Assembly: GCF_016925495.1 (NCBI RefSeq)
Contig: NZ_CP070491.1
Location: 4,228,001-4,292,000, forward strand
Source: Methylococcus sp. EFPC2
Lineage (GTDB): Bacteria; Pseudomonadota; Gammaproteobacteria; Methylococcales; Methylococcaceae
DNA length: 64,000 bases
Direction: 5' to 3'
The position numbers were made by a program, and so were the translations under genes. The notes under the pieces are model-generated. The model worked only from the letters and a program-made list of their open reading frames with translations, had not been told where the DNA came from and ran no database searches. Shown here in pieces: positions 27,246-46,336 of this stretch (positions are counted from its first letter, which is position 1; every line of letters starts with the position of its first letter).

Positions 27246-27269
27246 TTGAACACCCTGGACGGCTTACCC

Positions 27270-28640
27270 ATGGCAAGCGAAAAAATCGAGTTCACGCGAG
27301 CGGCATTGTCCGCGATCACTCCCCCGGCGAAGGGGCGGGACTATTTCCGAGACGTCAAGCAAGCTGGCTTGCTGTTGGACGTAACCGCTTCCGGTACCAA
27401 GGCATTCCAGCTTTACCGCAAGGTTGGAGGTAAACCGGTGCGGGCCGTCCTAGGGCGATTCGATCCCGATTTGCCGGATTCCCGAGAACTGCCGAAAACG
27501 CTAGCCAACGGTAAGCCTCTAGATCCCCTGGCCTATATCGGCAACACGCCCCGGTTAAATGTCCGCATGGCGCGCGCCCTGACGGTTGCCGTATCGGCGG
27601 CGATGGATCGGGGCGAAAACCCGGTGGCGGACCGGCGGGAACAGCGCCGCAAAGCGGCGGAGGAGCTGACGCTTAGGGAGGCCTTCGACCTGTATTACAA
27701 AGACCACTTGCAACCCCAAGGCCGGCGCACCGCTGAGGAGCTGCAAGGGGAGTTTGCCCGCTACGTTGGCAAGGTGGTGCCCGGACAGAAAAAGCCCCGC
27801 GGGAAGGAAAGAACCAAAGCACCGGGTTCGGTTGATTGGGAGGGGCGCAAGCTATCCAGCATCAAGCCGGTGGAGGTCCGCAAGCTGATGGTAAGCCTTC
27901 GGGAGAACGTCGGGCCGCGCACGGCCAACAAGGTGCTGGCTCTTCTGCGGGCGCTCTATCGGAAGCTGGCGGAGTGGCGAGCTTATGACGGTGAGAACCC
28001 TACCCTGGGCATTCCGAAATATCCCGAGCGGGAGCGCTCGCGTTTCCTCAAGGCTGAAGAGTTGCCCAAGTTCTTTGAAGCGCTCCAAGGGGCTCCCGAG
28101 TATTTCCGTCACTTCGTTTTGCTGGCTATCTCTACTGGGGCTCGATCTTCGAATATTCAGGGTATGCGCTGGGTCGACCTGGACTTACACGCCGGCTTAT
28201 GGACTGTGCCGGGTGAGCAATCAAAGAACGGCGACCACCTGGTTATTCCTCTGACTGCGCCTGCTCTGGAAGTGCTGCGTGAGCGGCGGGGCAGCGGTAG
28301 TCCCTGGGTGTTTCCTTCCTACTCTGCCAGTGGTCACATGGGCCACCCGGCGAAGCCATGGGCGGACCTGTTGGAGCGGGCCGGCTTGACCGATCTGCGC
28401 ATGCACGACCTACGCCGAAGCCTGGGCAGTTGGGCAGCGATCCAGGGAGCCAGCATGGCGATCATCGGACAAGCCCTGGGGCATAAGAGCACCGATGCAA
28501 CCCGTATCTATGCCCGGCTGAGTGTGGACCCGGTACGCGATGCGATGGAGCGAGCGACCAGCGCCATATTCGCCGCCGGGGGCATACAACCCACTGCCGA
28601 AGTGGTCGACCTGGGAGCCAAGCGCAAGGCTAAAAAGTGA
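27270..28640 (+). CDS. int: site-specific tyrosine integrase, P4-like
   Basis: A 456-residue tyrosine recombinase that would catalyse integration and excision at the tRNA-Arg att. The N-terminal arm-binding domain is DUF4102-like (~1-100), with a core-binding SAM-like domain (~130-235) and a catalytic domain (~255-445). Catalytic residues are seen as the Arg in STGARSSNI, the HDLRR box, the His of ALGHKS and the Tyr in TRIYARL. The ATG at 27270 is preferred to the in-frame TTG at 27246, which lies within the inverted repeat. The stop is only 3 bp from the 87-bp iteron-like repeat. Confidence 0.93.
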   Translation: MASEKIEFTRAALSAITPPAKGRDYFRDVKQAGLLLDVTASGTKAFQLYRKVGGKPVRAVLGRFDPDLPDSRELPKTLANGKPLDPLAYIGNTPRLNVRMARALTVAVSAAMDRGENPVADRREQRRKAAEELTLREAFDLYYKDHLQPQGRRTAEELQGEFARYVGKVVPGQKKPRGKERTKAPGSVDWEGRKLSSIKPVEVRKLMVSLRENVGPRTANKVLALLRALYRKLAEWRAYDGENPTLGIPKYPERERSRFLKAEELPKFFEALQGAPEYFRHFVLLAISTGARSSNIQGMRWVDLDLHAGLWTVPGEQSKNGDHLVIPLTAPALEVLRERRGSGSPWVFPSYSASGHMGHPAKPWADLLERAGLTDLRMHDLRRSLGSWAAIQGASMAIIGQALGHKSTDATRIYARLSVDPVRDAMERATSAIFAAGGIQPTAEVVDLGAKRKAKK

Positions 28641-28643
28641 TGT

Positions 28644-28780
28644 TTTTTCCCGGCCCCCTCATTTTGCAACCGGGAAAACCGGGAAAACCGGGAAACCCTG
28701 ACGCCACGCGGCTTCCAGCCTTCCCGGTTTGATTTTTGGCACCGGGAAAAACCGGGAGAACCGGGAAAATTCTTGCACCG
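28644..28780. repeat. left copy of 87-bp inverted repeat with CCGGGAAAA units
   Basis: 28644-28730 is the reverse complement of 42758-42845 except for one substitution and one inserted G. It contains tandem CGGGAAAAC units, and more copies follow to about 28780. The location directly after int and between int and the convergent recombinase makes it non-coding here, whereas the partner copy lies inside a gene. No gene can be supported in 28641-28889. Confidence 0.85.
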
Positions 28781-28889: not shown

Positions 28890-29441
28890 CTATCGGCTTT
28901 CCAAGGCTGCGTATAAGGTCGTCCGGCTGATGCCGTACTCTGCGGCCAGGGCTTTCTTGTTCGCTCCCTGGTTGAGCTTCTGCCGTATCTCTGCGACCGT
29001 TTCGGGCGTGAGCTTTGAAGGCGCCCCCACATGCTTACCTTTCGCCTTGGCGGCGGCGATGCCTTCCCGCTGACGCTCCCGGATAAGGGCGCGCTCGAAC
29101 TGAGCAAAGGCCCCCATCATCTGGAACATGAGGGTTTGCAAGGCGCCATCCTGCCCGCCGAATTGCAGGTTTTCCTTGTGGAAGCGCACCATCACGCCTT
29201 TCTTGGTCAGGCCGTCAACGATGGTCTGGAGGTCGACCAGGTTGCGCGCCATCCGGTCGATGCTATGGACGTGGAGCGTGTCGCCGTCCCGGAGGAAGTC
29301 GATACACGCTTGAAGCTGCGGTCGTTTGGCATCCTTCGCGCTGGCCTTTTCCTCGAAAACCTTGTCCAGGGCGATCCCGGCTAGTTGACGGTCCGTGTTC
29401 TGGTCAAAGCTGCTTACCCTGATGTATCCGACGCTGGTCAT
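28890..29441 (-). CDS. serine recombinase, resolvase/invertase family
   Basis: A 183-residue small serine recombinase. The nucleophilic serine is in GYIRVSSFDQN near residue 9-10; the DTLHVHSIDRMARN segment holds the conserved Arg pair; the C-terminal HTH is at ~140-183 (KKALAAEYGISRTTLYAAL). It is the only element gene on the minus strand. It could resolve element dimers or invert DNA. Related proteins act on paired sites close to their own promoter, and such a candidate site is present upstream. Confidence 0.92.
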   Translation of the reverse strand: MTSVGYIRVSSFDQNTDRQLAGIALDKVFEEKASAKDAKRPQLQACIDFLRDGDTLHVHSIDRMARNLVDLQTIVDGLTKKGVMVRFHKENLQFGGQDGALQTLMFQMMGAFAQFERALIRERQREGIAAAKAKGKHVGAPSKLTPETVAEIRQKLNQGANKKALAAEYGISRTTLYAALESR

Positions 29442-29769: not shown

Positions 29770-30009
29770 ATGACCCGACGAGAAAAGCTGTGGACAAGCA
29801 TTCGCAACAACCCCAAGGGCGTACGTTTCGAGGACGCCTGCAAGGTCGCTGAGGAACTGGGGTTCGTGCATAAAGGCGGCCAAGGTTCGCATTGTGCTTT
29901 TTCTCGCACGGGTGAGCCTGTCGGGCTGAACTTCCAGAATCGGAACGGCTTCATTCCGCCGTATCAGGCCCGGCAGTTGATCGAGATGATGGACAAGTAC
30001 GGAGCTTAA
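29770..30009 (+). CDS. hicA: HicA-type mRNA interferase toxin
   Basis: A type II toxin of 79 residues with the double-stranded-RNA-binding-like HicA fold. The catalytic histidine is in GGQGSHCAF, and the LNFQNRNGFIPPYQARQLIEMM tail matches the family strand-helix end. It cleaves mRNA when free of HicB. It is slightly longer than the classic 60-residue form, like other YcfA-type members. hicB starts 4 bp after its stop. Confidence 0.9.
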   Translation: MTRREKLWTSIRNNPKGVRFEDACKVAEELGFVHKGGQGSHCAFSRTGEPVGLNFQNRNGFIPPYQARQLIEMMDKYGA

Positions 30010-30013
30010 CCCT

Positions 30014-30370
30014 ATGCACCATTACCCCGTTGAAATCTTTTGGAGCGAGGAAGACGAAGGCTTTATTGCCGTGTTCCCCGATCTGCCCGGTTGTTCGGCC
30101 TGGGGTGAAACCGAGGAAGACGCCTTGAAAGCGTCTCAGCCTGCCGCTGCTGCCTGGATCGAGGCTTGCCGTGTTGCGGGTAATCCCGTGCCGGCGCCCT
30201 CCCGGCCCGGCGATGAGCAGGGATACAGCGGCCGCTTTGTTCTGCGCGTGCCGAAACGGCTACACGCCGATCTTTCCCGCGACGCCAAGGCTCAAGGCGT
30301 GAGCCTCAATCAATATCTGCTCTACTTGCTGACCGAGCGCCATACGGAAAGGCGGGCGGTGGCGCATTGA
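30014..30370 (+). CDS. hicB: HicB antitoxin with C-terminal ribbon-helix-helix
   Basis: The 118-residue antitoxin that pairs with HicA. The N-terminal degenerate RNase-H-like HicB fold is seen as EIFWSEEDEGFIAVFPDLPGC with GETEEDALKAS. A C-terminal Arc-type ribbon-helix-helix DNA-binding domain starts at ~76 (GRFVLRVPKRLHADLSRDA). The DNA-binding tail suggests autoregulation at the palindrome upstream of hicA. Its stop overlaps the ATG of a HigA fragment by one base. Confidence 0.92.
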   Translation: MHHYPVEIFWSEEDEGFIAVFPDLPGCSAWGETEEDALKASQPAAAAWIEACRVAGNPVPAPSRPGDEQGYSGRFVLRVPKRLHADLSRDAKAQGVSLNQYLLYLLTERHTERRAVAH

Positions 30371-30640: not shown

Positions 30641-30988
30641 ATGCACACACCCGAACGGGCGCCATCCACCGGCAGTAAGCCCGGCGCCACCGCCCTCCCC
30701 CTCAAACGACGAACGCCCCGCAAGAAAAGCCCGCCGGCGGGCCTGGTCGATTTCGACAACCTCCCGGCTGCCGCGCTAATCAACGTCCACGTGTTCGCTC
30801 TGCTCCTGAACCTTGGCGTCAACTCCATATGGCGCAAGGCCAAGGCGGGCGAACTGCCCAAACCGGTTAAGGTCGGCACCGGCGCCACGCGCTGGCGGGT
30901 TGGCGCCGTAAGAAATTATCTTGCGAGCCTGGAAGAATCAGATCCTCCCCGCCTCAGCCCATCCCCCGGAGTAACCCACCATGGCTGA
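30641..30988 (+). CDS. alpA: AlpA-like excisionase/transcription regulator
   Basis: A 115-residue protein with a basic, Pro-rich N-terminal tail (~1-35) and an AlpA/HTH_17-type winged helix domain (~40-97): ALLLNLGVNSIWRKAKAGELPKPVKVGTGATRWRV is the usual recognition-helix and wing pattern. AlpA proteins activate integrase/excision genes in satellite-type elements such as P4-like islands. Its end overlaps the tape-measure start by 8 bp, so the two are translated together. Confidence 0.85.
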   Translation: MHTPERAPSTGSKPGATALPLKRRTPRKKSPPAGLVDFDNLPAAALINVHVFALLLNLGVNSIWRKAKAGELPKPVKVGTGATRWRVGAVRNYLASLEESDPPRLSPSPGVTHHG

Positions 30989-33716
30989 TCTAACCCGCAC
31001 AATTGAAATTATCTTCGGGGCCCAAGATAGAAACTTGAGGACCAGTCTTTTAATCATCGAGCGCGCCATGGGCGACTTAGAAGGCAGTGTCCGCGACGTG
31101 GCCGCCCCACTCGCATCGCTGGCCGATACCATGGCCACCACCGAAGCCGCCGCCATAGCCCTGGGCGCGGCGTTGGTCGGCGCCGTGGTCCATGAGGCGG
31201 GGAAGTTCAGCGATTCGGTCAAGGAAATCGGCACCCTGTTCAATGGATCCTCTGAAGCGATAGGCCGTTTCGGCCGTGACGTACTCAACTACGGGCAAGA
31301 CTCCACCCAATCGATTGAAAGCCTCAACGGCGCCCTCTACGAAGCCATCTCGTCGGGTGTGGATTACAACGATGCTCTTGGGCTGATCAACACCACGGAA
31401 AGGCTGTCCGTCGCCGGCAAGGCGGACCTGACCGAGACGACCAAGGTCCTGGTGTCCGCGCTCAACGCCTACGGCCTGAGCACGAAAGACGCCGGGCGGT
31501 TCAGCGACGATCTGTTCCAGACCGTCAAGCTGGGGCAAACCACGCTGCCGGAGCTGGCGCAAAGCATTTCCCAAGTGACCGGCATAGCGGCCGGGTCCGG
31601 TGTCTCTTTTGAAGAGCTCAATGCGGCCATTGCAGCATTGACGGTCGCCGGCTTGCCCACGTCGGAAGCGATCACCGCTATTCGGTCGGCGTTGTCCAAC
31701 ATCATCAAGCCGTCCAGCGAGGCGGCGAAAATCGCCGAAGATTTGGGCCTTAAGTTCGACGCGTCGGCGCTGTCGTCCAAGGGGTTCTCCGGCGTCCTGG
31801 GCGACGTGTTCAAGGCTACCGGCGGCAACATTGATGTGATGGCCAAGCTGTTTGGATCAGTGGAAGGCCTCAACGGCGCGATGGTTCTCGGGGCCGACAA
31901 GTCGGGTAAGTTCAAGGAAGCACTCGCGGCCATGGCCAACGCTTCCGGCACCGTGGACCAGGCGTTCAACATTATGGCGGATAACGTCGGCTTGTCAGTT
32001 CAGCGCCTGGTGAATTCCATCGAAGTGGCCGCGATCAAGGCCGGACAACCATTGCTTGAAGAGTTCGGCGGCGTCACCAAGGCCCTGGCCGCGATCTTCC
32101 AGGGCCTGGGCGCCGGCATCGACGCGGGCGCGTTCGACCCGCTTTTGAATGCCCTGCAAGCCTTCGGTGGCGAGGCCGAGCGCCAACTCCAGGCAATCGC
32201 CGCGAATCTCCCGGAAGCCCTGAGCGGCCTGGATTTCACCGGCCTGATAGATTCCTTCCATGATCTGGGTGGCGAGCTATCCACGATCTTTGAGGACGTA
32301 TTCGGCCGCGTCGATCTGAGCACGCCGGAAGGCCTGAGGGCCGCGCTGCAGCGCCTGGTCGATGGCTTCGAGGCGCTGACGAGGATCACCACCGGCATAG
32401 GCCAGGGGATGGAACCGTTCTTTCGCGCCATGGGTTCGGTCATCGATCACACCGTTCAGGCCGGTGACAGCACGCAGGAGCTGGGTGGCAGGATTCTCGG
32501 CTTCGCGCGCGTCATCGAGAGCGCAGGGCCGGTGTTGGACGAATTCCAGAACACGATGCACCTGGTAGCCACGTCGTTATCCCTTATTGCCGGGGCGCAA
32601 ACCATCGGGGCGGTCAAGACCATAGGTAGTTTGGCAGCCGCTGCGGGGCCGGCCGCGGTGATCATGGGCGGGCTGACCGTCGCGGTTGCCCCGCTGGCCG
32701 GTGCGCTGGGGTACAGCGTCGGTACGGGTCTGGCTTGGGCTATCGATAAAGTCGTAGGAAAACTCACGGGAGGGGACTCGCTCGGAACGTTGATTTATGA
32801 CCTTACCCACAAGGCCGAAGACCTTACGGCCACGGCCACCACGGCGGCCGGCGGCGTGGCCACCATGGGCAGGGCTTTGGATGGTGCCGGCCAGTCTTCG
32901 GCCAAGGCACATGAGAGCTTCAAGCCTATCGATCTGACCGGCTTCAATGCAGTGGCTGAGGCCGCAAAGCGCATGGGAGTTTCTTTGGACGATGCCGGCG
33001 CCGCAGCGACCAAGTTTTCCGATGGAAACGCCAAGGTCGAGCAGCTTGCCACGGGATACACGAAAGTCACCGACGCCTTGGGCAACCTGCATTTAGTCTG
33101 GCCAAAAGCTGAGGAAGCCGCGACGGGCTACAAGGAGGTGGTCGACGATCTGGGGCGGGTGTCGTATGTGCAGCTCGGCAACGCGGTCGACCGCACGAAT
33201 AAGGCCCTATCCGACCAGGGCGGCAAGCTGGCAGAAGTGGAAAAGCAGGCTAGGGAGTTCGATCTAAAGCTGCGCGAAATCCAGTCAAAAGAGCGTATTG
33301 CCGTCATCGAAGCCAAGGTCAAGATCGACCAGGCGCAAATCGAGGCTGACTTGAAGCGCGTTCAAGCGGTGTTCTCGTCGATCGACGCCGGCATCAAATC
33401 CACGGGCGACGTGCTCGGCAAACTCAACGATGCCATGAAAGGCGCGTCGGAGTTCGATAAATTGGGCCTCCAGGACCAAATCCGCGAGGAACAGAAGCGC
33501 CGCGCGCAAGAATTCGAACAACAGAAAAAACTCACGGAAGAGCAGCTCAAATACCTGCAGGCCCGGCGGCAAAAACTCAACCAGGGCGATGCGCTGGTAA
33601 AAGTGGAGTCCGGCACCTTGCAACCGGCCTTGGAAATGATATTCCATGAGATCCTCAAGGCCTGCCAGTTGAGGGCCAATCAAGAGGGCTTGGAATTCCT
33701 TATCGGGGCGTTGTGA
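30981..33716 (+). CDS. phage tail tape-measure protein, orphan
   Basis: A 911-residue protein with the PhageMin_Tail/TP901-type core (~65-365). The signature runs from SDSVKEIGTLF through YEAISSGVDYNDAL, VLVSALNAYGLST and LFGSVEGLNGAMVL. A hydrophobic region (~535-605) and an extensive coiled coil (~755-870) follow. In phages this protein sets tail length and is ejected with DNA. Here no tail tube, terminator or baseplate gene lies nearby. It is coupled to an AlpA-like gene in place of a tail operon, and overlaps the next gene (TGATG). The core family call is firm; its role in this setting is unknown. Confidence 0.88.
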   Translation: MADLTRTIEIIFGAQDRNLRTSLLIIERAMGDLEGSVRDVAAPLASLADTMATTEAAAIALGAALVGAVVHEAGKFSDSVKEIGTLFNGSSEAIGRFGRDVLNYGQDSTQSIESLNGALYEAISSGVDYNDALGLINTTERLSVAGKADLTETTKVLVSALNAYGLSTKDAGRFSDDLFQTVKLGQTTLPELAQSISQVTGIAAGSGVSFEELNAAIAALTVAGLPTSEAITAIRSALSNIIKPSSEAAKIAEDLGLKFDASALSSKGFSGVLGDVFKATGGNIDVMAKLFGSVEGLNGAMVLGADKSGKFKEALAAMANASGTVDQAFNIMADNVGLSVQRLVNSIEVAAIKAGQPLLEEFGGVTKALAAIFQGLGAGIDAGAFDPLLNALQAFGGEAERQLQAIAANLPEALSGLDFTGLIDSFHDLGGELSTIFEDVFGRVDLSTPEGLRAALQRLVDGFEALTRITTGIGQGMEPFFRAMGSVIDHTVQAGDSTQELGGRILGFARVIESAGPVLDEFQNTMHLVATSLSLIAGAQTIGAVKTIGSLAAAAGPAAVIMGGLTVAVAPLAGALGYSVGTGLAWAIDKVVGKLTGGDSLGTLIYDLTHKAEDLTATATTAAGGVATMGRALDGAGQSSAKAHESFKPIDLTGFNAVAEAAKRMGVSLDDAGAAATKFSDGNAKVEQLATGYTKVTDALGNLHLVWPKAEEAATGYKEVVDDLGRVSYVQLGNAVDRTNKALSDQGGKLAEVEKQAREFDLKLREIQSKERIAVIEAKVKIDQAQIEADLKRVQAVFSSIDAGIKSTGDVLGKLNDAMKGASEFDKLGLQDQIREEQKRRAQEFEQQKKLTEEQLKYLQARRQKLNQGDALVKVESGTLQPALEMIFHEILKACQLRANQEGLEFLIGAL

Positions 33717-34063
33717 TGGATAGACAAAACGAGGCTTTGTCGCGCTTTAGCGATCAAATCAAGGGCCTGCTGACAAACGTCGATCTTTTTCGGCAGCACG
33801 TGTGTGCTTTTCTGGACCAGGATGAGCGAGACATTCCCAACGAAACCCTGGTGCAAATACCCTGCACGATTGAGCCCCTGCCAGTAAGGACCTTTGATGC
33901 GGCCTTGGGCGCCGCCGCGCTTGTTGTGGCGTCGGACTACTTCGGTATCCGGTTGGCCATACCCGAAACCGATGATGGCCAACGTGGCGCGGACCTGGGC
34001 GACTTGGTAGCCGTGGCGCTGAAAACGGCCGCTGTGTGCCTCGCCGGCATCGAGGCAAATCTA

Positions 34064-34902
34064 GATAGCGTCGTCACAAGATTATGAGAGAATAGTTCTA
34101 TCTCAAATTTTCTTTGAAAGGAAAGATGGCGGATTCAGGGCATCGGCGACACGATATATCGGATCGAGTCTGGCAATTATTGGAGCCGCGGTTGCCGGGG
34201 CGAGAAGGTGCTTGGGGTGGTAAAGCGCACGATAACCGCCGGTTTATCAATGCGGTTTTTTGGATTTTGCGCACTGGCGCGCCGTGGCGAGACTTGCCGC
34301 CCGACTACGGCGATTGGAAAAACACCCATCGCCGTTTTTGCCGTTGGCGCGATAAAGGCATATGGGAATCCTTGTTGGAACAGTTGGTGATCGAACCTGA
34401 CTATGAATGGCTGATGATCGATGCCAGCCACATTAAAGTCCACCCGCATGCGGCGGGCGCCAAAGGGGGCAGCCAGGATATGGGGGTCACAAAAGGGGGC
34501 TCAACAGCAAGATACATCTGGCCGTGGATGCGCATGGTATGCCGCTCAGAGTCATTGTTACAGCAGGTACCGTGGCAGATTGTACGCAGGCTTCAACCTT
34601 GATCGCGGGTTTGGATGCCCAGCATCTGCTGGCGGACAAAGGCTACGACACGGACGCCATCGTCGCCCAAGCACAAGCTGCCCATATGGCGGTTGTCATT
34701 CCGTCGAAGAAAAATCGCACCGAACTTCGCGCGTATGACCGAGACCTTTACCGCCTTCGGCATTTGGTGGAAAACGCCTTTCTACACCTGAAGCGCTGGC
34801 GCGGTATTGCAACTCGTTATGCCAAAAATACCGCTTCATTCTTGGCGGCGGTGCAGATTCGCTGCATTGCTATTTGGGCCGCTATCTTATGACGACACTA
34901 TC
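34064..34902. mobile_element. IS5-family (IS427-like) insertion sequence
   Basis: An 839-bp insertion. Inverted termini: left GATAGCGTCGTCACAAGAT (34064-34082), right end reverse complement GATAGTGTCGTCATAAGAT, 17 of 19 identical. It is flanked by a TA duplication (34062-34063 and 34903-34904). It carries one transposase in two overlapping frames. Size, ends and short TA-type duplication fit the IS427 group of IS5. Confidence 0.88.
34126..34892 (+). CDS. IS5-family DDE transposase, two frames with -1 frameshift
   Basis: The first frame starts at ATG 34126 with the DUF4096-type N-terminus (DISDRVWQLLEPRLPG, TGAPWRDLPPDYGDW) and the first catalytic Asp (WLMIDASHIKVH); it runs on to 34602. The second frame covers ~34500-34892 with the second Asp (LADKGYDTD) and the Glu in RHLVENAFLHLKRWR. 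The two join by a -1 shift at the AAAAGGGGGC run (34491-34500). This is the usual programmed-frameshift design of the group, so the transposase may be active. Confidence 0.85.
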
Positions 34903-35208
34903 TAATGATGGCGCGTATCGAGGAGGTCTACCGGCCGGTAGTCTTCGGCATAGATGAATTCTTGGAGCTCAACATAGCCATGGATGCCCTGAAGCTAGGC
35001 GGACTGGATGCCGGCCTGTTCGCCGCTCGTCTCATGGCGCGGCGTGTGCTGCGCTTGCAGGGGGATGCGCTGGTGGAGAAATACGAGGCTTTTCTAAGAA
35101 GCGGCGAGCTCCCCGGCGTCCGGTCATTCCGTATAGGCGAGCGGACCATCCGGGTGGAGCGCCAAGACTAGGCCGCTGCCCGGCCATTCCACCCCTATCG
35201 AGCAACAG

Positions 35209-35375: not shown

Positions 35376-36293
35376 ATGGCTGACGATAAGTTACCAGATT
35401 TCGCCCTGCCCGAATATATGACCTTGGACGCCTTGGACGATGGCGTTCGACGGGTGAACGAGGTAATGAAAAACGCTTTCGAAATGGACAGAAGGGTGTC
35501 CACTGTTTTTGGAAGCTCATATCTAGGAGCAGGGGACAAAGTCGCACTTCAAGACTTGGAGCGTAATATCTCGCGAGCCCACCATTCTTCGAGCGCCTTA
35601 CAACCCCTCACAAAGCCGTTCGCCAAGGTATGGCGTGAAGCAATCAAGGCCTGCGATGCCCGCGAGGCGGCATTTTTGCTGTTGAATTACATACCGCCCG
35701 AGGTGCCGTCATCGATACCAATTTCAAGGGAAATAAACGCCCTAATTGAGCAAATAAGAGCAACTTACCCGACCGACGTTCTGCACGACGGTATCCCCAA
35801 ATATTCAATGGGGCTGTTAGAAAAAATAGCCACGGATTTGGGGTTGGCATCATCAATGATCTGTACCGCGCTACGGGATGACGACGTAATCGCGGGCGAA
35901 CAGGCAGGCAAAGCAACGGACGAGGCCGCGCCGGATGAGCGGGCCGACCGAACGGCGGCTGAGCCTTCCCAATTATTGGCCGTGCCCCCCTTGCGTGAGC
36001 CGAAAAACAACAGCGACCAAGCTTGGCTTGTTTACGAAACATGGCGCGCCCTGAAGGGCGGCAATCCAGAGGCCTCGCCCACCCATGGACAGGTTCACGG
36101 TTGCCTGTGGGATGAGGCGAATAAACCATCTACTGACCCAATGAAAGACAAGCGACTTGTCGAAACTAAGGGTCAGACAATATATCTCGCCGACGGCACG
36201 ACCATGACCAAGGAATCAATCCGAAGGTCTATGAATAATCTCAGGGAGAATGCTTCCGGCAAAAAGCGACGAGAACCGACTAAAACAGCCTAA
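35376..36293 (+). CDS. hypothetical element protein
   Basis: A 305-residue soluble protein without a recognised family; the start at 35376 has an AAGAGGAA site. The N-terminal half is helical (VRRVNEVMKNAFEMDRRV; KVWREAIKACDAREAAFLLLNY). A charged Asp/Glu/Ala-rich linker (~170-205) leads to a basic C-terminal part (TMTKESIRRSMNNLRENASGKKRR) that could bind nucleic acid. It lies between two terminators and the HTH gene and seems to be the first gene of the next operon. Confidence 0.75.
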   Translation: MADDKLPDFALPEYMTLDALDDGVRRVNEVMKNAFEMDRRVSTVFGSSYLGAGDKVALQDLERNISRAHHSSSALQPLTKPFAKVWREAIKACDAREAAFLLLNYIPPEVPSSIPISREINALIEQIRATYPTDVLHDGIPKYSMGLLEKIATDLGLASSMICTALRDDDVIAGEQAGKATDEAAPDERADRTAAEPSQLLAVPPLREPKNNSDQAWLVYETWRALKGGNPEASPTHGQVHGCLWDEANKPSTDPMKDKRLVETKGQTIYLADGTTMTKESIRRSMNNLRENASGKKRREPTKTA

Positions 36294-36381
36294 AAGCCAC
36301 ACGCCCGCCCTAGTTATACCGACACTGAACCCGAAGCCTGGCGATAGCCGGGTATTTCTTCACCTATTCGGAGTTCTAACA

Positions 36382-36624
36382 ATGTCGGCCATCTCAAAAC
36401 CAGTCGCCGCCGCAACGGCGGCGAGCGAAATCATGGACCGCCCCGAGGCGGCCAAATATCTAGGCTTATCCGAACAAACGCTTGCGTCATGGGCCTGTAC
36501 CGGACGGCATTCTTTGCCGTTCGTGCGCCTGGGCCGGCGGGTCAAATACCGCAAGTCGGACCTTGACGCCTACTTGGCCAGCCACACCGTCAACGGTGCG
36601 ACCACCGAGGAGGCAGCCCAATGA
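36382..36624 (+). CDS. small helix-turn-helix protein, excisionase-like
   Basis: An 80-residue protein with an HTH_17 (MerR-like/excisionase) domain: IMDRPEAAKYLGLSEQTLASWACTG followed by LPFVRLGRRVKYRKSDLDAYLA. The ATG at 36382 is chosen because it is the first one in front of the domain; an upstream extension overlaps the preceding gene. It probably controls excision or element transcription. It overlaps the next gene (ATGA). Confidence 0.85.
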   Translation: MSAISKPVAAATAASEIMDRPEAAKYLGLSEQTLASWACTGRHSLPFVRLGRRVKYRKSDLDAYLASHTVNGATTEEAAQ

Positions 36625-37025
36625 CCGGCGCCGATGAGATTGTTTCCGTGCTGGACGAGATAGTCGGTTGCCTCCTCTTCGACGAAGACCCCGCCAAAAA
36701 ACTTATCACCATTCCTGTAGCCCTGCGGGGTCTTGCGGAAGAAATCCGCTTGCTGAGAGGGGCTATCCAGGTGCGGCCGCCCCAGCTTTGCCCGGCCCCG
36801 CCCACTCTGCGGGCGGTCTTTCGTCAACGGGACAACAAGGAGACGTTCGTCCGCGTCGTGGGCTTGTTCTTGGCCATCGAAGAGGCCGCGTATCCCCACC
36901 TGGACGGGTACATTGAGGACGATGAAACGCCGTGCTCGCAGCATTGCAACTTCGCCGGCTTCCGGTTCGTCGATGAAGCGAGTTCGTCCCTCTGCGCGGC
37001 AAGCGAGCAAGGGGGAGCGGAATGA
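36621..37025 (+). CDS. hypothetical acidic element protein
   Basis: A 134-residue protein coupled to its neighbours by 4-bp ATGA overlaps on both sides. The N-terminus is an amphipathic helix (ADEIVSVLDEIVGCLLFDEDPAKK). The middle has a Pro/Cys stretch and the C-terminus several cysteines (ETPCSQHCNFAGF). No family is recognised. Confidence 0.7.
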   Translation: MTGADEIVSVLDEIVGCLLFDEDPAKKLITIPVALRGLAEEIRLLRGAIQVRPPQLCPAPPTLRAVFRQRDNKETFVRVVGLFLAIEEAAYPHLDGYIEDDETPCSQHCNFAGFRFVDEASSSLCAASEQGGAE

Positions 37026-37696
37026 TCGGGGCGTCGAACATTATCGCCCTGGATTATCAGGGCCATGAAATAGGCTTCGCGGAAACCGGCTGGTTTAATG
37101 CCACGGAAGCGGCGGCGGGGTTTGGTAAACGGCCTGTGGACTGGTTGGCCCTGGACAGCACGCAAGACTATATCGCTACGCTGGCCGAGATTTCTAAATG
37201 TGAGAAATCCTCACTTTTAAAGACCAAGCGAGGCCGACACCACGGGGGTACCTGGATGCACCCGAAACTTGCCGTTCCCTTCGCCCGTTGGCTGGATACC
37301 CGTTTCGCCATTTGGTGCGATCTGCAAATAGACGCCCTGGTTCGCGGCACCCACCAAGCCTATGACTGGCAGAAAGCCCGCTCTGCGGCGACCAGTTCGT
37401 TCAAGGTGATGGCGGAGGTGTTGCGCCTGGTGCGGCAGGATCAAGGCAAAGCCACCGAAACCCGCCATTACATCAACGAAACCCGGGTAGTGAATTGGGC
37501 GCTATCGGGCGAGTTCAAAGCGCTGGATCGTGAGTCCCTGGCGCCGTGCGACTTGGCGCTCCTGGCAAGCCTGGAAGAGCGCAACGCCGTATGGCTGGGG
37601 CGTGGTGTCGCCTACGCCGACCGGAAAAAGATACTGGAGCAACACGCCTTGGACTGGCGGAGCGGGCAGCAGCCCAAGATCGAGAGGGCAGCATGA
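37022..37696 (+). CDS. KilA-N domain protein
   Basis: A 224-residue phage-type regulator. The KilA-N DNA-binding domain is at ~5-105: WFNATEAAAGFGKRPVDWL, a central RGRHHGGTWMHPKLAVPFARWL segment and FAIWCDLQIDALV. The C-terminal part is helical and unassigned. KilA-N proteins are common in temperate phages and their satellites, mostly with unknown targets. It overlaps the upstream gene by 4 bp. Confidence 0.88.
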   Translation: MIGASNIIALDYQGHEIGFAETGWFNATEAAAGFGKRPVDWLALDSTQDYIATLAEISKCEKSSLLKTKRGRHHGGTWMHPKLAVPFARWLDTRFAIWCDLQIDALVRGTHQAYDWQKARSAATSSFKVMAEVLRLVRQDQGKATETRHYINETRVVNWALSGEFKALDRESLAPCDLALLASLEERNAVWLGRGVAYADRKKILEQHALDWRSGQQPKIERAA

Positions 37697-39495: not shown

Positions 39496-39731
39496 GCGCC
39501 ACACGCATAGACCGCGAAACCGCCAGCAAGATCAATCCCTTGATCGATGGCAACAACGCCGACACGCTGGGCCATGTCATCGCCGTGCTGGACTTCCTGT
39601 CCATCGCGTCGACGGACATGGAGTGTTACAACGAATACGGGCTGAGCAAGACCATCGACTTGTGTACGGCCGCTCTGCAATACGAAATCGACGCCCGGCC
39701 ACCGGGAGGAGGTGACGATGCCCCGTCGTAA
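39492..39731 (+). CDS. small element protein upstream of primase
   Basis: A 79-residue protein (LGHVIAVLDFLSIASTDMECYNEYGLSK) with an alpha-helical composition. It overlaps the preceding gene (ATGA) and runs 14 bp into the primase gene, so the chain of translational coupling is unbroken from 38,310 to the primase. Confidence 0.7.
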   Translation: MSATRIDRETASKINPLIDGNNADTLGHVIAVLDFLSIASTDMECYNEYGLSKTIDLCTAALQYEIDARPPGGGDDAPS

Positions 39732-42633
39732 ACCTCCCGATTTCGACCTCATCAAGTCCCGTGCTCTCGATCAAATCGAGGCCGTTTGCGCCCGCTGGCT
39801 GCCGAATGGCAAGCGCAGCGGGCGCGAGTGGCAAATCGGCGACCGCTTCGGCGCGGAAGGCCAAAGCCTGAAAGTACACCTGAGCGGCGACAAGGCCGGC
39901 ATCTGGTCCGACTTCAGCACGGGTGACAAGGGCGGCGACCTGGTGTCGCTGGTCGCCTACGTGGACAGCATTTCCCAAGGCGATGCCGCCCGCGAGCTGG
40001 CGGCCTTCCTGGGGCTTGCTACGGACGACGAGCCCAAACCCGCCACACCAGCAGCGCCTAAACCGGCGCCAGCGCCAGCACCGGCCCCGGAGGCGGTCTG
40101 GCGGCCGGTGTTGCCCATTCCGGAAGATGCACCGCCTAAGCCTGCGGCGCACCGCGGGCACGGCAAGCCGGACGCCTGGCACGTATACCACGATGCCGCC
40201 GGCCGCCTGCTGGGCTACGTGGCCCGCTTCGAGAAGTCGGCTACACGGAAGAAGAAGGAATTCGCCTGGCTGGTCTATGCGGAACTCGCAGGCCGCCGGG
40301 AGTGGCGTTGGCAGGGATTCGATGTCCCGAGACCGCTCTACGGTCTGGATGACCTGGCGCAACGGGCCGGGTGCTTGGTCCTGCTGGTGGAAGGCGAAAA
40401 ATCGGCCGATGCGGCACGGGGTTTGATGCCGGCCTGGGTCGTCATGACCTGGCCGGGCGGCTCGAAGGCGATCGACAAGGCCGACTTCGGTCCCCTGGCC
40501 GGGTGCGACCTGATTCTCTGGCCAGATGCCGACCAGCCCGGCCGCGAGGCGATGGACAAGGCCGCAGGGCTGCTCACGGAGGCCGGTGCCGCATCGGTGC
40601 GCTTGGTCGATCTGTCCTTGTTTGCCAAGCTGGCGCCTGGCGCTGATGAGGCCGGGGCGGCGATCCTGACCGAACACGCCCGCGAACTGCCGGAAGGCTG
40701 GGACGCCGCCGACGCCGTGGCGGAAGGCTGGACGGTCGATCATTTCGTTCAAATTGTCGACCGGCCGGACTTTTACGCCACGCCCACGGTGGCGGCTGAA
40801 CCGGAGACGGTGCCAGCGGAATCGACGGCGGAGCCGGCGGGGAAACCTGGAAAGGCCAAGCAGAAGCCGAAAGTACCCGAGGCGGCGGAGCCCGCGACCG
40901 GCGGCGATTCGCGTTTCATGGTCAACGATGCCGGCTTGTACTACGTCGCAGCCGACAAGGATGGCGAGCTTAGACAGGTGCGTATTTCCGATGCGCTCTA
41001 CGTTCCTGCACTGGCACGGGATGAAGAGTCCGCCGGCTGGTCCCCGGTGCTGGAGTTCCGCGACATGGACAGCCACTTGAGACAGGAAATCATCCCTCGG
41101 CGCCAGTTCCTGGGCGACGGCACGGACGGACCGAAGCAGCTTGCCGACCTGGGGCTATTCATCGAGCCTGGCCGGCAATCGCTGGACCGGCTCAAGGCCT
41201 ACATTGCCGGCGCCAGACCGCCGAAACGCGCCCGCCTGGTGGATGCCACCGGCTGGCACGGGTCCGCTTACCTGCATCCCGAGGGTGCCATAGGCGACAC
41301 GGACGAAACCTTGCTTTATCGCGGCAGCAAGCGGGCGCTCGGGGTGTTCACCGGCAAGGGCAAGCTGTCCGACTGGCAAGCGAATATCGCGGCGCTGGCG
41401 GTCGGCAATCCCCGGCTGATGTTCTCCCTGTCGGTCGCCTTTGTCGGCCCATTGTTGAAGCCCTGCGGCGGGCCGTCCTTCTGTTGTCACTGGGTAGGCG
41501 ACAGTTCGGAAGGCAAATCCGGTTCACTGACGGCGGCCGGGTCTGTCTGGGGCGCTCCTGCTGGCATAGTTCATAGCTGGAGGAGCACAGATAACTCAAC
41601 CGAGTATGTCGCCGCTCAGCATAACGATGGCTTGCTGATCATGGACGAACTGAAGGAGGTCGATCCCAAGCAGGCCGGCGCTATTGCCTACATGTTGAGT
41701 AATGCGAAAGGGAAGAATCGTGCCCACCATGCCGGTGGACTGCGGGAGACGTTGACCTGGCGCATAGCGATGCTTTCATCCGGTGAGTTGGGCCTAGCCG
41801 ATCACCTGGCCAGCGCGGGACAGAAGGCCCACGCCGGGCAGTCGGTCCGCTTCATCGAGCTGCCGAGCAACGGCGGCGCCGAGTTGGGCATGTGGAACGA
41901 ACTGCACGGACTTGCCGACGGACGCACGTTTACCGACACCCTCAAGGCCCAAGCTGGCCGCTACCACGGCACCGCCGGCCGGGCTTTCGTGGCTGCGCTG
42001 ATCGAGCGGCTTCCTGATGTGCCCGGCGTGGTCAAGCGTTTGGAAGAGCGGTTCTTTCTGGACTTCGTGCCCGCCGATGCCGGCGGCCAGACCAAGCGCG
42101 TGGCCGGATGCTTCGCCCTGATTGCCACGGCCGGAGAACTGGCGGCCGATTGGGGCATCGTTCCATGGCAGGCGCAAGCCGCGTTCAACGCGGCCGGAGA
42201 GCTGTTCTCCGAATGGTTGGAAGGGCGGCCCACGGCGGGAAACCTGGAAGAAGCGCAAATACTCGCCCACGTGCGGCGCGTGATGGAAAAGAGCTGGCAG
42301 GCCCGCTTTGTCGACTGGCACAGGGTGAGTGAAGACAACGCCGACATATCCCGCATGGCGGCGGTTCAAGAGACGCTGGGTTTTCGCAAGAAAGACGTTC
42401 CCTTCAATCCGGACGACCCCGCCTTCCTGTTCTATGTCACCCGCGAGCGATTCGCGGAAGAGTTCGGGGTAAAAGCCGGTTTCAAGCCCAAGCGCGTGGC
42501 GGCCGTGCTGAAGGCGCGGGGCATCTTGAAATGCGATGCGGACGGAACCACCCTCAAGGAAAAACTGCCCAACGGAGACCCAAGATCGTATTGCATCATC
42601 GGCCGCAAATTGTGGGATGACGCGCCGTGTTGA
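39718..42633 (+). CDS. primase-helicase with TOPRIM-like and DUF927 domains
   Basis: A 971-residue replication protein. The N-terminus is CHC2/DUF3854-like (WSDFSTGDKGGDLVSLVAYV). A TOPRIM-like region has VLLVEGEKSADAAR and ILWPDADQPGREA (~220-290). A Pro/Ala/Lys/Glu linker (~355-405) precedes the DUF927-type helicase with Walker A GDSSEGKSGSL and Walker B LLIMDEL (~600-655). This pairing is typical of autonomously replicating satellites and mobile islands. ATG 39718 is chosen over GTG 39712 because GGAGGAGGT lies just upstream. Confidence 0.9.
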   Translation: MPRRKPPDFDLIKSRALDQIEAVCARWLPNGKRSGREWQIGDRFGAEGQSLKVHLSGDKAGIWSDFSTGDKGGDLVSLVAYVDSISQGDAARELAAFLGLATDDEPKPATPAAPKPAPAPAPAPEAVWRPVLPIPEDAPPKPAAHRGHGKPDAWHVYHDAAGRLLGYVARFEKSATRKKKEFAWLVYAELAGRREWRWQGFDVPRPLYGLDDLAQRAGCLVLLVEGEKSADAARGLMPAWVVMTWPGGSKAIDKADFGPLAGCDLILWPDADQPGREAMDKAAGLLTEAGAASVRLVDLSLFAKLAPGADEAGAAILTEHARELPEGWDAADAVAEGWTVDHFVQIVDRPDFYATPTVAAEPETVPAESTAEPAGKPGKAKQKPKVPEAAEPATGGDSRFMVNDAGLYYVAADKDGELRQVRISDALYVPALARDEESAGWSPVLEFRDMDSHLRQEIIPRRQFLGDGTDGPKQLADLGLFIEPGRQSLDRLKAYIAGARPPKRARLVDATGWHGSAYLHPEGAIGDTDETLLYRGSKRALGVFTGKGKLSDWQANIAALAVGNPRLMFSLSVAFVGPLLKPCGGPSFCCHWVGDSSEGKSGSLTAAGSVWGAPAGIVHSWRSTDNSTEYVAAQHNDGLLIMDELKEVDPKQAGAIAYMLSNAKGKNRAHHAGGLRETLTWRIAMLSSGELGLADHLASAGQKAHAGQSVRFIELPSNGGAELGMWNELHGLADGRTFTDTLKAQAGRYHGTAGRAFVAALIERLPDVPGVVKRLEERFFLDFVPADAGGQTKRVAGCFALIATAGELAADWGIVPWQAQAAFNAAGELFSEWLEGRPTAGNLEEAQILAHVRRVMEKSWQARFVDWHRVSEDNADISRMAAVQETLGFRKKDVPFNPDDPAFLFYVTRERFAEEFGVKAGFKPKRVAAVLKARGILKCDADGTTLKEKLPNGDPRSYCIIGRKLWDDAPC

Positions 42634-43232
42634 AGTGGCTGGATACGCTCGCCACGGCTGAAAAACCGGCGGCGAGCAACGCCCTCATATCAACGTCGGT
42701 GCAATTCGGTAAAACAACTTTCCCGGTTTTCCCGGAAATCGAAACCCCCGAAATAGAAAACCGGGAAGGCTGGAAGCCGCGTGGCGTCTGGGTTTCCCGG
42801 TTTTCCCGGTTTTCCCGGTTGCAAAATGAGGGGGGCCGGGAAAAACACGGCGCAAACGTGCTGATTTCCCTTGATGCGATCCCCCGAAATCTGCCCGATC
42901 TGATGGCCGCGATTGAGCCCTTCGCCGATGCCGAGGACCGGGCCTATCTATCCGAGCAAGCCGAGAGCAATCCCGACCATGCGGCATGGTATGCCTGGCT
43001 GCTGCTGCTCACCCCACCAGCCCCGACACCCGAGGACCTGGCCGAACTGGACGGTCTGATAGTCCGCCTCTGTGAGCTGTGGCCCTGGTCCAAGGACAAG
43101 GCATCCAAGCTGCTTGCCTGTCGTGAACGAATGGCGCCCGCCCGAGTGGCCGAAGACTTGGCCCGGTTCCGCTCATGGGTGCGCCATGCTGAAGTCGAAC
43201 GGGCCGCCGCTGTGGGGCGGGCAGAGGAATGA
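42627..43232 (+). CDS. hypothetical protein carrying the coding copy of the 87-bp repeat
   Basis: A 201-residue protein that starts at a GTG overlapping the primase stop by 7 bp. Residues ~30-75 are encoded by the CCGGGAAAA-type repeat and contain VSRFSRFSRLQ and FPVFPEIETPEIE, low-complexity segments. The C-terminal part (~85-200) is helical and acidic (LDAIPRNLPDLMAAIEPFADAEDRAYL; LCELWPWSKDKASKLL). It may serve replication with the primase; no family is recognised. Confidence 0.72.
   Translation: MLKWLDTLATAEKPAASNALISTSVQFGKTTFPVFPEIETPEIENREGWKPRGVWVSRFSRFSRLQNEGGREKHGANVLISLDAIPRNLPDLMAAIEPFADAEDRAYLSEQAESNPDHAAWYAWLLLLTPPAPTPEDLAELDGLIVRLCELWPWSKDKASKLLACRERMAPARVAEDLARFRSWVRHAEVERAAAVGRAEE
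42758..42845. repeat. right copy of the 87-bp inverted repeat, inside a gene
   Basis: The reverse complement of 28644-28730 with one substitution and one extra G. It contains three tandem TTTCCCGG units (42792-42819) and lies within the 201-residue gene. A shorter related stretch (TTTCCCGGTTTTCCCGG) precedes it at 42719-42735. Confidence 0.85.
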
Positions 43233-43439
43233 TTCTGCGCGGCGAATTTTAGTCCCTAGCTCTGCCCCTTCCGAACGGTAGTATCACGCCCTGGTGAGGC
43301 TGGTGGGACGCCAAGGCGCCAGATAGAACGCGGGTCCTTCCTGGGGTTCGCGAACGCGGTTAATTCGTGCCCCGATTTTTTGGTAGTTTTAGTGGTTTCA
43401 ATAGGTTGCTTTTTGTAGTTGGTGGCTGCGGAGGTTGCA
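43233..43439. other. non-coding gap before terS, candidate cos region
   Basis: A 207-bp gap directly upstream of the small terminase gene, where lambda-like phages keep the cos site. It ends in a T- and G-rich segment with imperfect repeats (TTTTTGGTAGTTTTAGTGG near 43378-43396 and TTTTTGTAGTTGGTGG near 43410-43425). No known cos sequence is recognised, so this is a positional guess. Confidence 0.3.
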
Positions 43440-43985
43440 ATGACAATGATGACGGTACAGGCATACGCGCAGCATCGGCGCTCAGCGGGGCTGGCTGGGT
43501 GTACCCGGCAGGCGGTCGAAAAGGCGATTGCGGGCGGGCGTATTAGCATCGTCGACGGGCGTATCGATCCCGCGACGGCGGATGCCGAGTGGGAGCGCAA
43601 TACCCGCAAGCGGGCCGACCTGCATTCCCGTGCTGGATTGGTAGCGATGCCGGTTACAACCCTGCCGGTCAGCGCCAAGCCGACGACAGACTGGAGCGAT
43701 CACAAAGCGCGCAAAGAGGCGGCCGAAGCCAGCCTGAAAGAGCAAGAGCTAGCACGTCGTTCCGGCGAGCTGGTCGACCGCCGCGGGATGGAACGTGCAG
43801 CGCACGAGACAGCCCGCGTATTACGTGATGCGCTGATCGACACCCTGCCGAGCAAAATCAGCATGGAGCTGGCAGCCATGACCGATCCCTGGCAGGTTGA
43901 GTGCCGTTTACGCGAGGCTATCCGTGCCGAGCTGTACGCCATCGTGGATGGCCTGAGCGGTCGGGAGCCTCAGCATGCAGCTTGA
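43440..43985 (+). CDS. terminase small subunit, Nu1-like
   Basis: A 181-residue protein. ATG 43440 has GGAGG 5 bp upstream; an earlier GTG at 43419 lacks one. The N-terminal winged HTH (TRQAVEKAIAGGRISIVDGRIDPATAD) followed by AEWERNTR resembles lambda gpNu1 and would bind cos. The middle helix (RKEAAEASLKEQELARRSGELVDR) and C-terminus fit the terminase-binding part. It overlaps terL by 11 bp. Confidence 0.8.
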   Translation: MTMMTVQAYAQHRRSAGLAGCTRQAVEKAIAGGRISIVDGRIDPATADAEWERNTRKRADLHSRAGLVAMPVTTLPVSAKPTTDWSDHKARKEAAEASLKEQELARRSGELVDRRGMERAAHETARVLRDALIDTLPSKISMELAAMTDPWQVECRLREAIRAELYAIVDGLSGREPQHAA

Positions 43986-46014
43986 TGCCGCCATCTACAG
44001 CGACGGGGCGACGGCCTACCGGGAGGCGTTCGGTGCCGGCCTGCGGCCCGACCCACCGCTCTGGGTTGATGAATGGTCCGAGCAGCATATGGTGATCCCG
44101 AAAAGCTCGGGCGCGGCTGAGCCCGGCCGTTATCGGGTCGAGCGCACGCCCTATGCCCGCGAGCCCATGCGGGCGCTATCACCCGAGCATCCAGCGCTGA
44201 AAGTGGTGATCAAGGGCGCATCGCAGTTGCTCAAAACTCAGGTCGCGCTGAACTTTGTCTGCTCCGTCATCGATCGCCAGCCGGCCAACGTGATCGTATT
44301 GGAGCCCACCGACAAGCTGGCCCGCCGCGTCGCCGCCCGCTTCGACAAGATCACCCAAGAGGTCGCGCCGCTTACCCGCAAGGTAGCTAAGCGCAAACAC
44401 CGTGACTCGAAAAATAGCGCGGAGACCAAGGAGTTCGAAGGCGGAACGGCCTGGTTCCTCTCGGCCCGTTCGGCGTCCAACCTGTCTGAGGCCTCAGCCC
44501 GCTATGTCGTGGTCGATGAGGTCGACCGCATCCTGCGCGAAATCAAGGGCGAGGGCGACACGGTCGGCCTGGTCGAAAAGCGCCAAACCACTTACGGCCG
44601 CAAGGCGAAAGGGCTCTACATTTCGAGCCCCACGGAAGAGGACGCCAGCCGCATCGAAGAGCTCTACCGCGAGGGCAACCAGCACCAATACCACGTGCCG
44701 TGCCCGCACTGTGGCGAGCTGCAGGCGCTCGAATGGGAGAATTTTTTCTACGAGCTCAACGCCGAAGGCCGCGGTCGCGCCTGGATGGTTTGCATACGCA
44801 ACGGCTGCATCATCGAAGAGCACGCAAAGCCGGTAATGTTGCCGGACGTAAAAGCCGGCGGCAGGGCGGAATGGATCCCCAGCGCCCCCGGCAACGGCGA
44901 AACCTGGAGCTACGAAATCAGCAGCCTCTATGCCCCGCTCGGCTGGGTATCCTGGCTGGCTCTGGCGCGCGAATACGACGAAGCCAAAAAAGCCGCCGAC
45001 ATCGGTGATCGCGAAAAGCTGCAGGTGTTTTACAACACCCGTTTGGCGCGCACCTGGAGCAGCAAAAATGCCGTTGTAAAGCCGGAAAAACTCCGCGAAA
45101 AAGCCGAGGCCTATCCGCTCGGCATCGTGCCGATGCCGGCCCTGTCGCTCACCGCCACGGTGGACGTGCAGGGCAATCGACTGGAATGTCAAATCGTCGG
45201 CTGGGGTCCCGGCCCCACCGGGCTGGAGGCCTGGATCGTGGGCACGCACATACTCTACGGAGATCCCACGTTGCGGGAAGTGTGGAGCGAGCTGGACGAG
45301 CTGCTGAAAACGCCCGTGCGTCATGCCAGCGGCGCGCTGTTCGTCATCCGCGCCGTGGGCATAGACTCCGGCGACGGCGACAGCACGCAAGAAGTCTACG
45401 AATTTTGCCGTCCCCGTTCGCGGCGCTACGTCGCCGGCAAGCTGCAAGCGGTGCTCGCCGTCAAGGGCGCCTCGCAGGCCAAAAAGCCGGTCATCGCCGG
45501 CAGCCCCAGCAAAGTCGAATACAACTACCGCGGCAAGCCCATCATGGGCGGAACCCAGCTATGGAACATCGGCACCGACACCGCCAAGGACTGGATTTAC
45601 AACCGTCTCAACCTCGCCGGCCAAATCGCCATCCACACCAGCGATCAACTGCCGATCCAGTTTTACGAGCAGCTCCTGTCCGAGGCCAAAACGACGCGCT
45701 GGGTCAAAGGCAAGCGCCGCACCAGCTATGAGTTGATCAAGCGCGGCAGCCGCAACGAGCAGCTCGACCTAATGGTATATAACCTGGCCATGGCGAATTT
45801 TCTCGGCCTGGACCGTTACACCGCCGAGCGGTGGGAAAAGCTGCGCGCCGCCCTGGTGCAAATCGACCTGCTAACCGAGCTCGACGCCCAGCCTGTGGCC
45901 AGCGCCCAGCCAGCCGATGCCCAGCCGCCGGCCATCCCCCCGCCCGCAAAACTGCCGCCCGCCACGCAGGCGCGCGGCCGCCGCGCCCGTTTTTACGTCG
46001 CCCGCCAGAGGTAA
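43975..46014 (+). CDS. phage terminase large subunit, lambda gpA type
   Basis: A packaging ATPase/nuclease of 679 residues. The adenine-binding and Walker A-like region is VIKGASQLLKTQVALNF, and the Walker B is YVVVDEVDRI. A CxxC pair (PCPHCGE) follows, and the nuclease centre has ATVDVQGNRLECQIVGWG and VGIDSGDGDST. The C-terminal Pro/Ala tail (~645-670) is extended. Family length is normal, so packaging activity is plausible. It is the last large gene before the right att. Confidence 0.93.
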   Translation: MQLDAAIYSDGATAYREAFGAGLRPDPPLWVDEWSEQHMVIPKSSGAAEPGRYRVERTPYAREPMRALSPEHPALKVVIKGASQLLKTQVALNFVCSVIDRQPANVIVLEPTDKLARRVAARFDKITQEVAPLTRKVAKRKHRDSKNSAETKEFEGGTAWFLSARSASNLSEASARYVVVDEVDRILREIKGEGDTVGLVEKRQTTYGRKAKGLYISSPTEEDASRIEELYREGNQHQYHVPCPHCGELQALEWENFFYELNAEGRGRAWMVCIRNGCIIEEHAKPVMLPDVKAGGRAEWIPSAPGNGETWSYEISSLYAPLGWVSWLALAREYDEAKKAADIGDREKLQVFYNTRLARTWSSKNAVVKPEKLREKAEAYPLGIVPMPALSLTATVDVQGNRLECQIVGWGPGPTGLEAWIVGTHILYGDPTLREVWSELDELLKTPVRHASGALFVIRAVGIDSGDGDSTQEVYEFCRPRSRRYVAGKLQAVLAVKGASQAKKPVIAGSPSKVEYNYRGKPIMGGTQLWNIGTDTAKDWIYNRLNLAGQIAIHTSDQLPIQFYEQLLSEAKTTRWVKGKRRTSYELIKRGSRNEQLDLMVYNLAMANFLGLDRYTAERWEKLRAALVQIDLLTELDAQPVASAQPADAQPPAIPPPAKLPPATQARGRRARFYVARQR

Positions 46015-46016
46015 CC

Positions 46017-46073
46017 ATGCCCAACATCGGGCCCAGCCTGCAGCGCGTGAGGCCTCATTACGCCAAGTATTAG
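46017..46073 (+). pseudogene. 18-codon stump after terL
   Basis: ATG 46017 has AGAGGTAACC directly upstream, a good ribosome site, and encodes MPNIGPSLQRVRPHYAKY before a stop. In complete lambda-like phages the gene after terL is a head-joining or portal gene. Here the frame ends after 18 codons and attachment DNA begins, so the head module appears cut off or was never present. A small hairpin (ACGTGC/GCACGT) follows at about 46103-46119. Confidence 0.45.
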
Positions 46074-46194: not shown

Positions 46195-46218
46195 GGTAGC
46201 ACAGCGGTAGCACAGGAA
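46195..46218. repeat. right arm-type repeats, GGTAGCACAG units
   Basis: Two direct GGTAGCACAG copies (46195-46204 and 46206-46215) plus GAA form a 24-bp perfect match, in the same orientation, to 27208-27231. They lie 40 bp inside the right att core, as arm sites for the integrase would. Confidence 0.65.
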
Positions 46219-46258: not shown

Positions 46259-46304
46259 ATGGCGCGCCCGGCAGGATTCGAACCTGCGACCAACGGCTTC
46301 GGAA
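46259..46304. repeat. right attachment core within tRNA-Arg
   Basis: 46 bp identical to 27043-27088. It forms the 3' half of the intact tRNA-Arg (anticodon loop to CCA) and extends one base past the CCA. The incoming element restored the tRNA on this side. Confidence 0.92.
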
Positions 46305-46336
46305 GCCGCTACTCTATCCAACTGAGCTACGGACGC
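46260..46336 (-). tRNA. tRNA-Arg (anticodon CCG)
   Basis: 77 nt with a fully paired 7-bp acceptor stem (GCGTCCG/CGGGCGC with one G-T), D arm GCTCAGTTGGATAGAGT, anticodon loop TTCCGAA with anticodon CCG, T arm GCAGG-TTCGAAT-CCTGC and an encoded GCCA end. It is the integration target of the 19.2-kb element. Confidence 0.97.

Follow-up and report, generated by a model that had tools for sequence, protein, structure and literature searches.

A tRNA-Arg-integrated element of Methylococcus sp. EFPC2 with a complete terminase, a lone tape measure gene and no recognised head genes: a candidate cos-type satellite

Introduction

What can a complete phage terminase do in an integrated element that ends almost immediately after it? 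This question is raised by a locus of Methylococcus sp. EFPC2 (Methylococcales; Methylococcaceae) within a stretch of 64,000 nucleotides (contig NZ_CP070491.1, positions 4,228,001 to 4,292,000), here called the window, to which all positions refer unless another locus is named. A preliminary description of the window had proposed that the packaging signals of this DNA are handled by its own terminase while the heads come from elsewhere.

Results

Boundaries and Gene Content of the Element

The terminase genes belong to a phage-derived element of 19,261 bp (19.26 kb). Both of its ends are proven by an identical 45-nt att core, found by repeat search at 27044-27088 and 46260-46304 and lying in a tRNA-Arg(CCG) gene, and by arm repeats. 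Its features are the following:

27044-27088: attL core, 45 nt, identical to attR
27208-27231: 24-nt repeat GGTAGCACAGCGGTAGCACAGGAA, probable integrase arm site of the left edge (repeat search)
27246-28640, + strand: tyrosine integrase, 464 aa, TTG start assumed (PF00589, E = 3.1e-23; phrog_1, 2.6e-55)
28641-28737: left arm of a 97-nt inverted repeat, rich in CCGGGAAAACC
28890-29441, - strand: small serine recombinase (resolvase/invertase), 183 aa (PF00239, 4.1e-37; phrog_125, 1.9e-62)
29770-30370, + strand: HicA/HicB-like toxin-antitoxin pair (phrog_8887, phrog_497)
30641-30988, + strand: AlpA/excisionase-like regulator (phrog_66, 7e-5)
30981-33716, + strand: lone tape measure protein, 911 aa (PF10145, 3.2e-37; phrog_1533, 7.6e-49)
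34061-34905: insertion sequence, with transposase-like frames at 34114-34892
36250-36624, + strand: second HTH_17/AlpA-like regulator (PF12728, 9.7e-12)
37022-37696, + strand: KilA-N domain protein (PF04383, 1.1e-18)
39712-42633, + strand: DUF927 primase/helicase, 973 aa (PF06048, 3.1e-66; phrog_1139, 3e-64)
42751-42847: right arm of the 97-nt inverted repeat
43332-43387, + strand: cos-like site, GGGTCCTTCC-N42-TAGT, directly upstream of TerS (HMM and shared bipartite motif)
43440-43985, + strand: terminase small subunit TerS, Nu1-like, 181 aa (phrog_57, 1.8e-20)
43975-46014, + strand: terminase large subunit TerL, gpA-like, 679 aa, intact (Pfam and phrog matches)
46017-46073, + strand: 18-codon frame (MPNIGPSLQRVRPHYAKY, then stop), no homologue found
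46195-46218: 24-nt repeat, probable integrase arm site of the right edge, identical to the left-edge copy
46260-46304: attR core, inside the 3' end of tRNA-Arg(CCG)
46260-46336, - strand: tRNA-Arg(CCG), the integration target (ARAGORN)

The general layout is integrase, cargo, AlpA, KilA-N, primase, packaging module and att, and in the circular form the order is terL, att, integrase, HicAB, AlpA-like regulator and tape measure, in agreement with the earlier prediction that att, integrase and then the tape measure follow terL. All large genes are open with the exception of the insertion sequence, which has five copies in the genome (99-100%), and the att and arm sites are intact at both ends. 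The first AlpA-like gene overlaps the tape measure gene, a frame of 201 aa separates the primase from TerS, and small frames follow the KilA-N gene. The largest frame without assignment encodes 305 aa, and orf 35376-36293 had no relatives among viral contigs. Portal, capsid/head, tail-tube and lysis families gave no HMM match anywhere in the 19.26-kb element; neither a tail chaperone nor a baseplate hub was recognised in it. The 97-nt inverted repeat (93%) flanks a 14-kb block that opens with the serine recombinase gene. This block could be an invertible segment, or the repeats could be paired replication sites as in P4.

The Terminase

TerS starts with an ATG preceded by GGAGG 5 nt upstream, and TerL overlaps it by 11 nt. 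TerL (phrog_15, 3.9e-199) has the ATPase (GpA_ATPase, PF05876, 5.9e-67) and endonuclease (GpA_nuclease, PF20454, 1.4e-82) domains that, together with the Nu1-like TerS before it, define a gpA/Nu1 (lambda-type) terminase. It keeps the Walker A (GASQLLKT) and Walker B (VVVDE) motifs, the nuclease aspartates and a phage-like basic-aromatic C-terminal end. The two genes had been described as intact, and this held: TerL is full length with ATPase and nuclease motifs kept, and the catalytic residues, whose state in relatives had been suggested as a check, are intact in the window TerL and in its relatives. Decay was further evaluated on 73 alignment columns at least 95% conserved across 61 relatives. 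The window TerL was changed at six of the 73, its sister L100 at six and L185 at five; the equally distant relative L297 was changed at none, and others at 3-7. There is no sign of decay in this comparison, which a recent loss of function would escape.

The nearest relatives are 55-64% identical, a distance at which synonymous sites are saturated, and the closer ones (62-64%) were found in viral contigs on further search. In the TerL tree the window groups with L100 and L185 (support 100/100), and no further members of this clade were found at E 1e-150 in 316 genomes of the class. A portal lies within about 600 nt after TerL in L341 and 4 kb away, on the other strand, in L347. Given that the clade is otherwise found in phage contigs, some with a portal downstream (L341, L347), the cassette is of phage origin. 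The tail of the window TerL (...RRARFYVARQR) resembles that of phages (...RRVQSGYLKRR), and such an end occurs in 36 of 62 relatives vs. 7% after shuffling. The comparison of C-termini with helper phages proposed in the preliminary description was only suggestive as to the resemblance to phage relatives, and it identified no helper.

The cos-Like Site and the End of the Element

A block of about 88 nt is common to the regions upstream of TerS in relatives. A profile HMM made from 35 phage loci, with the window and L185 excluded from training, gave its best match in the whole 64-kb window at 43319-43387 (E = 0.014), the next having an E-value of 6.6. A search of both strands of the 8.9 Mb of retrieved sequence located the motif GGGTCCTTCC-N42-48-TAG[CT] at ten separate sites, in loci that were picked for their resemblance to the window element and are not an unbiased sample; its total length was 56-58 nt at eight of the ten. 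By our estimate, fewer than one such spacing match is expected by chance. The motif was found in the gpA TerL phages L297 and L101, in L306 and L334, whose genomes of origin also encode a gpA TerL and a portal, and in the TerL-less elements L247, L249, L197/L215 and L332. A cos upstream of terS, as in gpA/Nu1 systems, is recognised here by sequence homology only. Its position and conservation suggest that this is a cutting site, and the earlier proposal that the terminase handles the element's own packaging signal fits such an arrangement.

The 18-codon frame begins two bases past the TerL stop and has AGAGG upstream. A comparable start context follows nine of the 2,665 stop codons of the window (0.34%), and this rarity makes it a plausible start. 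Its peptide did not match the genes that come after TerL in relatives (gpW-like, Mor-like, Minor_tail_Z-like and portal). The frame had been taken for the stump of a lost gene, a view that finds no support since the peptide resembles none of those genes; a remnant of gpW, Mor or portal was discarded for the same want of similarity. The att DNA had been placed within 190 bp, and the core begins 187 nt after the frame, with the arm repeats from 46195.

The Tape Measure and the Source of Heads

The tape measure is full length with respect to its prophage relatives, that of G284 matching over residues 1-909, and its gene sits near the integrase end, away from late genes. No relatives were confirmed in viral contigs. 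Genome G028 has two copies of a close relative (L186 and L187), on short contigs and downstream of an endolysin-like gene; no obvious tail operon surrounds them.

The search for a resident helper covered four families, namely gpA terminase, two portal families and HK97 capsid. The genome to which the window belongs has no second gpA terminase, no portal of PF05136 or PF04860 and no HK97 capsid (PF05065), and we therefore consider that it harbors no resident helper of the searched families; none can be named. That the heads come from elsewhere, as had been proposed, is thus probable by elimination, neither element nor genome having a portal of the families searched, and the proposal led to no particular helper.

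Related Elements in the Bacterial Family

Similar elements, several of them in incomplete assemblies, were found in other genomes. L247 (G029) occupies the same tRNA-Arg and has AlpA, primase and cos-like site, with no terminase within the contig; another contig of G029 has the same att core together with a related integrase (73% over 1.5 kb). In the TerL-less L249 (G016, tRNA-Gly), a lone head maturation protease (S49; L249:4246-5097, - strand; phrog_53, 2.6e-66), which might alter capsid size, accompanies integrase, AlpA, primase and cos-like site. L332 (G021, tRNA-Leu) is an element of 13.4 kb between 58-bp att repeats, also TerL-less; besides integrase, AlpA and primase it carries the cos-like site with TerS, and a lone 545-aa tape measure. 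The C-terminal half of the L332 TerS is closest to that of the window TerS (56%; next best 47%), while the N-terminal halves are unlike. In lambda, TerL binds the C-terminal half of TerS (PMC9026076). In the gpA phage L334, from the same genome as L332, the motif lies about 4 kb upstream of TerS. G021 also has an apparent further lone tape measure near an integrase (L325), the ends of which are less certain. Downstream of the cos-like site, L249 (7490-7960, - strand) and L332 (11871-12464) encode a related family of 150-200 aa (35% identical) without known domain, which could be a packaging or interference factor.

The genome of the window itself has a second AlpA/primase element in tRNA-Leu(GAG) (L315, C1:1917000-1936500). 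At its right edge there is a lone tape measure of 708 aa (L315:14419-16545; phrog_1716, 1.8e-52), of another family than that of the window; neither the right att nor a cos-like site was recognised in L315. A third integrase/AlpA element (L310, C1:276000-295000) adjoins tRNA-Leu(CAA); its products include an 1155-aa large polyvalent protein with LPD3/LPD39 domains and a restriction-type helicase, and the window-type primase is present there as a fragment.

G040, whose L185 is the sequence of viral contig L348, was considered as a second portal-less TerS-TerL element and rejected as proof because its portal lies on another contig; in the related G141 the gap between TerL and portal stems from a 38.5-kb Tn3-type insertion in the prophage. 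This insertion is bounded by perfect inverted ends of 37 bp (L297 12010-12046 and L298 3469-3505). In the Pseudomonas prophage L063, tail-like genes come directly after TerL, and portal and capsid genes are missing.

Discussion

The att ends, the gene content, the catalytic motifs of TerL, the cos-like site, the lack of recognised portal and capsid genes and the recurrence of cos with lone virion genes point, with a probability of roughly 60%, to a cos-type satellite that has its own TerS-TerL and tape measure and borrows the prohead of a helper. The element would excise from tRNA-Arg when a helper phage enters or is induced, and would replicate with its own primase. Its TerS would bind the adjacent cos, where TerL would cut; TerL would then attach to a helper prohead at its portal and pump the satellite DNA into the helper-made head. 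The tape measure may be used in a chimeric tail built by the helper, as shown for PLEs (PMC12987554). It must be noted that an insertion sequence lies inside the element, that no resident helper was found, that the E-value of the cos match (0.014) is modest and that no second element was found that combines TerS and TerL with proven ends and lacks a portal.

The most serious competitor, although in our opinion a less likely one, is a defective prophage, a lambda-ordered phage that lost everything between TerL and attR and whose terminase is an unselected leftover. The gene order does match the left half of such a prophage (integrase, replication, cos, TerS, TerL, head, tail), of the 147 related loci that extend 2.5 kb or more beyond TerL, 145 have a portal there, L016 unites a related primase, cos-like site, TerS, TerL and portal, and L063 shows that deletion of head genes after TerL does occur. 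Against it stand the open genes and intact att and arm sites described above, together with a full-length tape measure placed beside the integrase and not among late genes. Moreover, elements of the same type bear cos and single virion genes (L332 and L249) or a lone tape measure (L315), and these are not obvious halves of phages. As cos and single virion genes recur in att-bounded AlpA/primase elements, we favor a satellite over an accidental remnant; the remnant is not rated lower because the element is a single case here and its terminase falls in a clade otherwise made up of phage members. Much less probable is that the terminase serves as a weapon, cutting helper cos DNA or occupying helper portals and thereby blocking the helper, in an element that spreads by other means. 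Because gpA phages of this group share the cos motif, helper DNA could be a substrate of the enzyme, and interference with helper packaging is known in several satellites (PMC5052747). However, the element bears a cos-like site beside its terminase genes and would also be a target, and nothing else indicates interference. A split prophage, in which portal and head genes elsewhere in the genome act jointly with the element, is the most improbable of all: TerL and portal are indeed far apart in G141 and G040, but PF05136, PF04860 and PF05065 are absent from the window genome and the att sites close the element.

A satellite of this kind resembles the cos-type PICIs (SaPIbov5, and EcCICFT073 of E. 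coli) in being att-bounded, with integrase, regulator, primase and a cos shared with helpers (PMC5052747; PMC6092414), in needing no head genes of its own for packaging and in having AlpA, the regulator of EcCICFT073. Unlike them, since they use the terminase of the helper, it encodes TerS and TerL beside cos, and a tape measure. With pac-type SaPIs that have a TerS it shares an own small terminase and a packaging module at the right end, the nearest parallel here being L332, but those depend on the helper TerL whereas the window element encodes one of gpA/cos type. The cfPICIs and the Streptomyces satellites MulchRoom and MiniFlayer also encode both subunits (PMC10690885); they have in addition their own portal, major capsid and other head genes, of which the window element has none. 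The PLE satellites of Vibrio cholerae likewise encode an alternative tape measure, which is incorporated into chimeric tails, and PLE-like elements and cf-PICIs have been reported to carry putative tmp genes (PMC12987554); the remaining gene content of PLEs is unrelated, and the terminase distinguishes the window element from them. Finally, Pseudomonas phage Lodos and related prophages have a homologous cos-like site, TerS and TerL (TerL about 50% identical), but they are full phages with portal, capsid and tail.

With regard to classification, the element has the integrase, AlpA-type regulator (a weak assignment, based on phrog_66 and HTH_17), primase module and att boundaries of Gram-negative PICIs, and portal, capsid and lysis genes are absent. 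Its tape measure departs from their definition, which admits no phage structural genes. Like cfPICIs it encodes its own TerS and TerL, and it lacks their capsid, portal, protease and connectors. Nor is it a complete lambda-like prophage, attR being 187 nt past the last frame with no portal, head or tail module after terL. As it falls outside both PICI definitions, we regard it as working like a cos-type PICI without being a member of that group.

Known satellites follow one of two routes: by means of cos, Rpp or TerS they redirect the motor of the helper, or, as cfPICIs, they supply both motor and head. Satellites with cos only or TerS only have been described (PMC5052747; PMC6092414), and those with TerS-TerL carry capsid genes too (PMC10690885); the open-access literature compared contained no satellite with TerS-TerL that lacks head genes. 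A satellite with a full motor and no portal, if true, would represent an intermediate stage and would put to a natural test whether a gpA-type TerL functions with a foreign portal. More tentatively, and at somewhat less than even odds, the elements described here may form a family of satellites that mixes single virion-assembly parts around a shared cos (cos alone, cos and TerS, or cos, TerS and TerL, to which a single tape measure or head protease is added), the window member bringing the whole motor and docking it on a foreign portal. This series, from cos through cos with TerS to cos with TerS and TerL, occurs in one bacterial family, and up to three other elements have a lone tape measure. 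Together they suggest that satellites gain virion parts singly and that chimeric particles are more frequent than would appear from the few cases studied.
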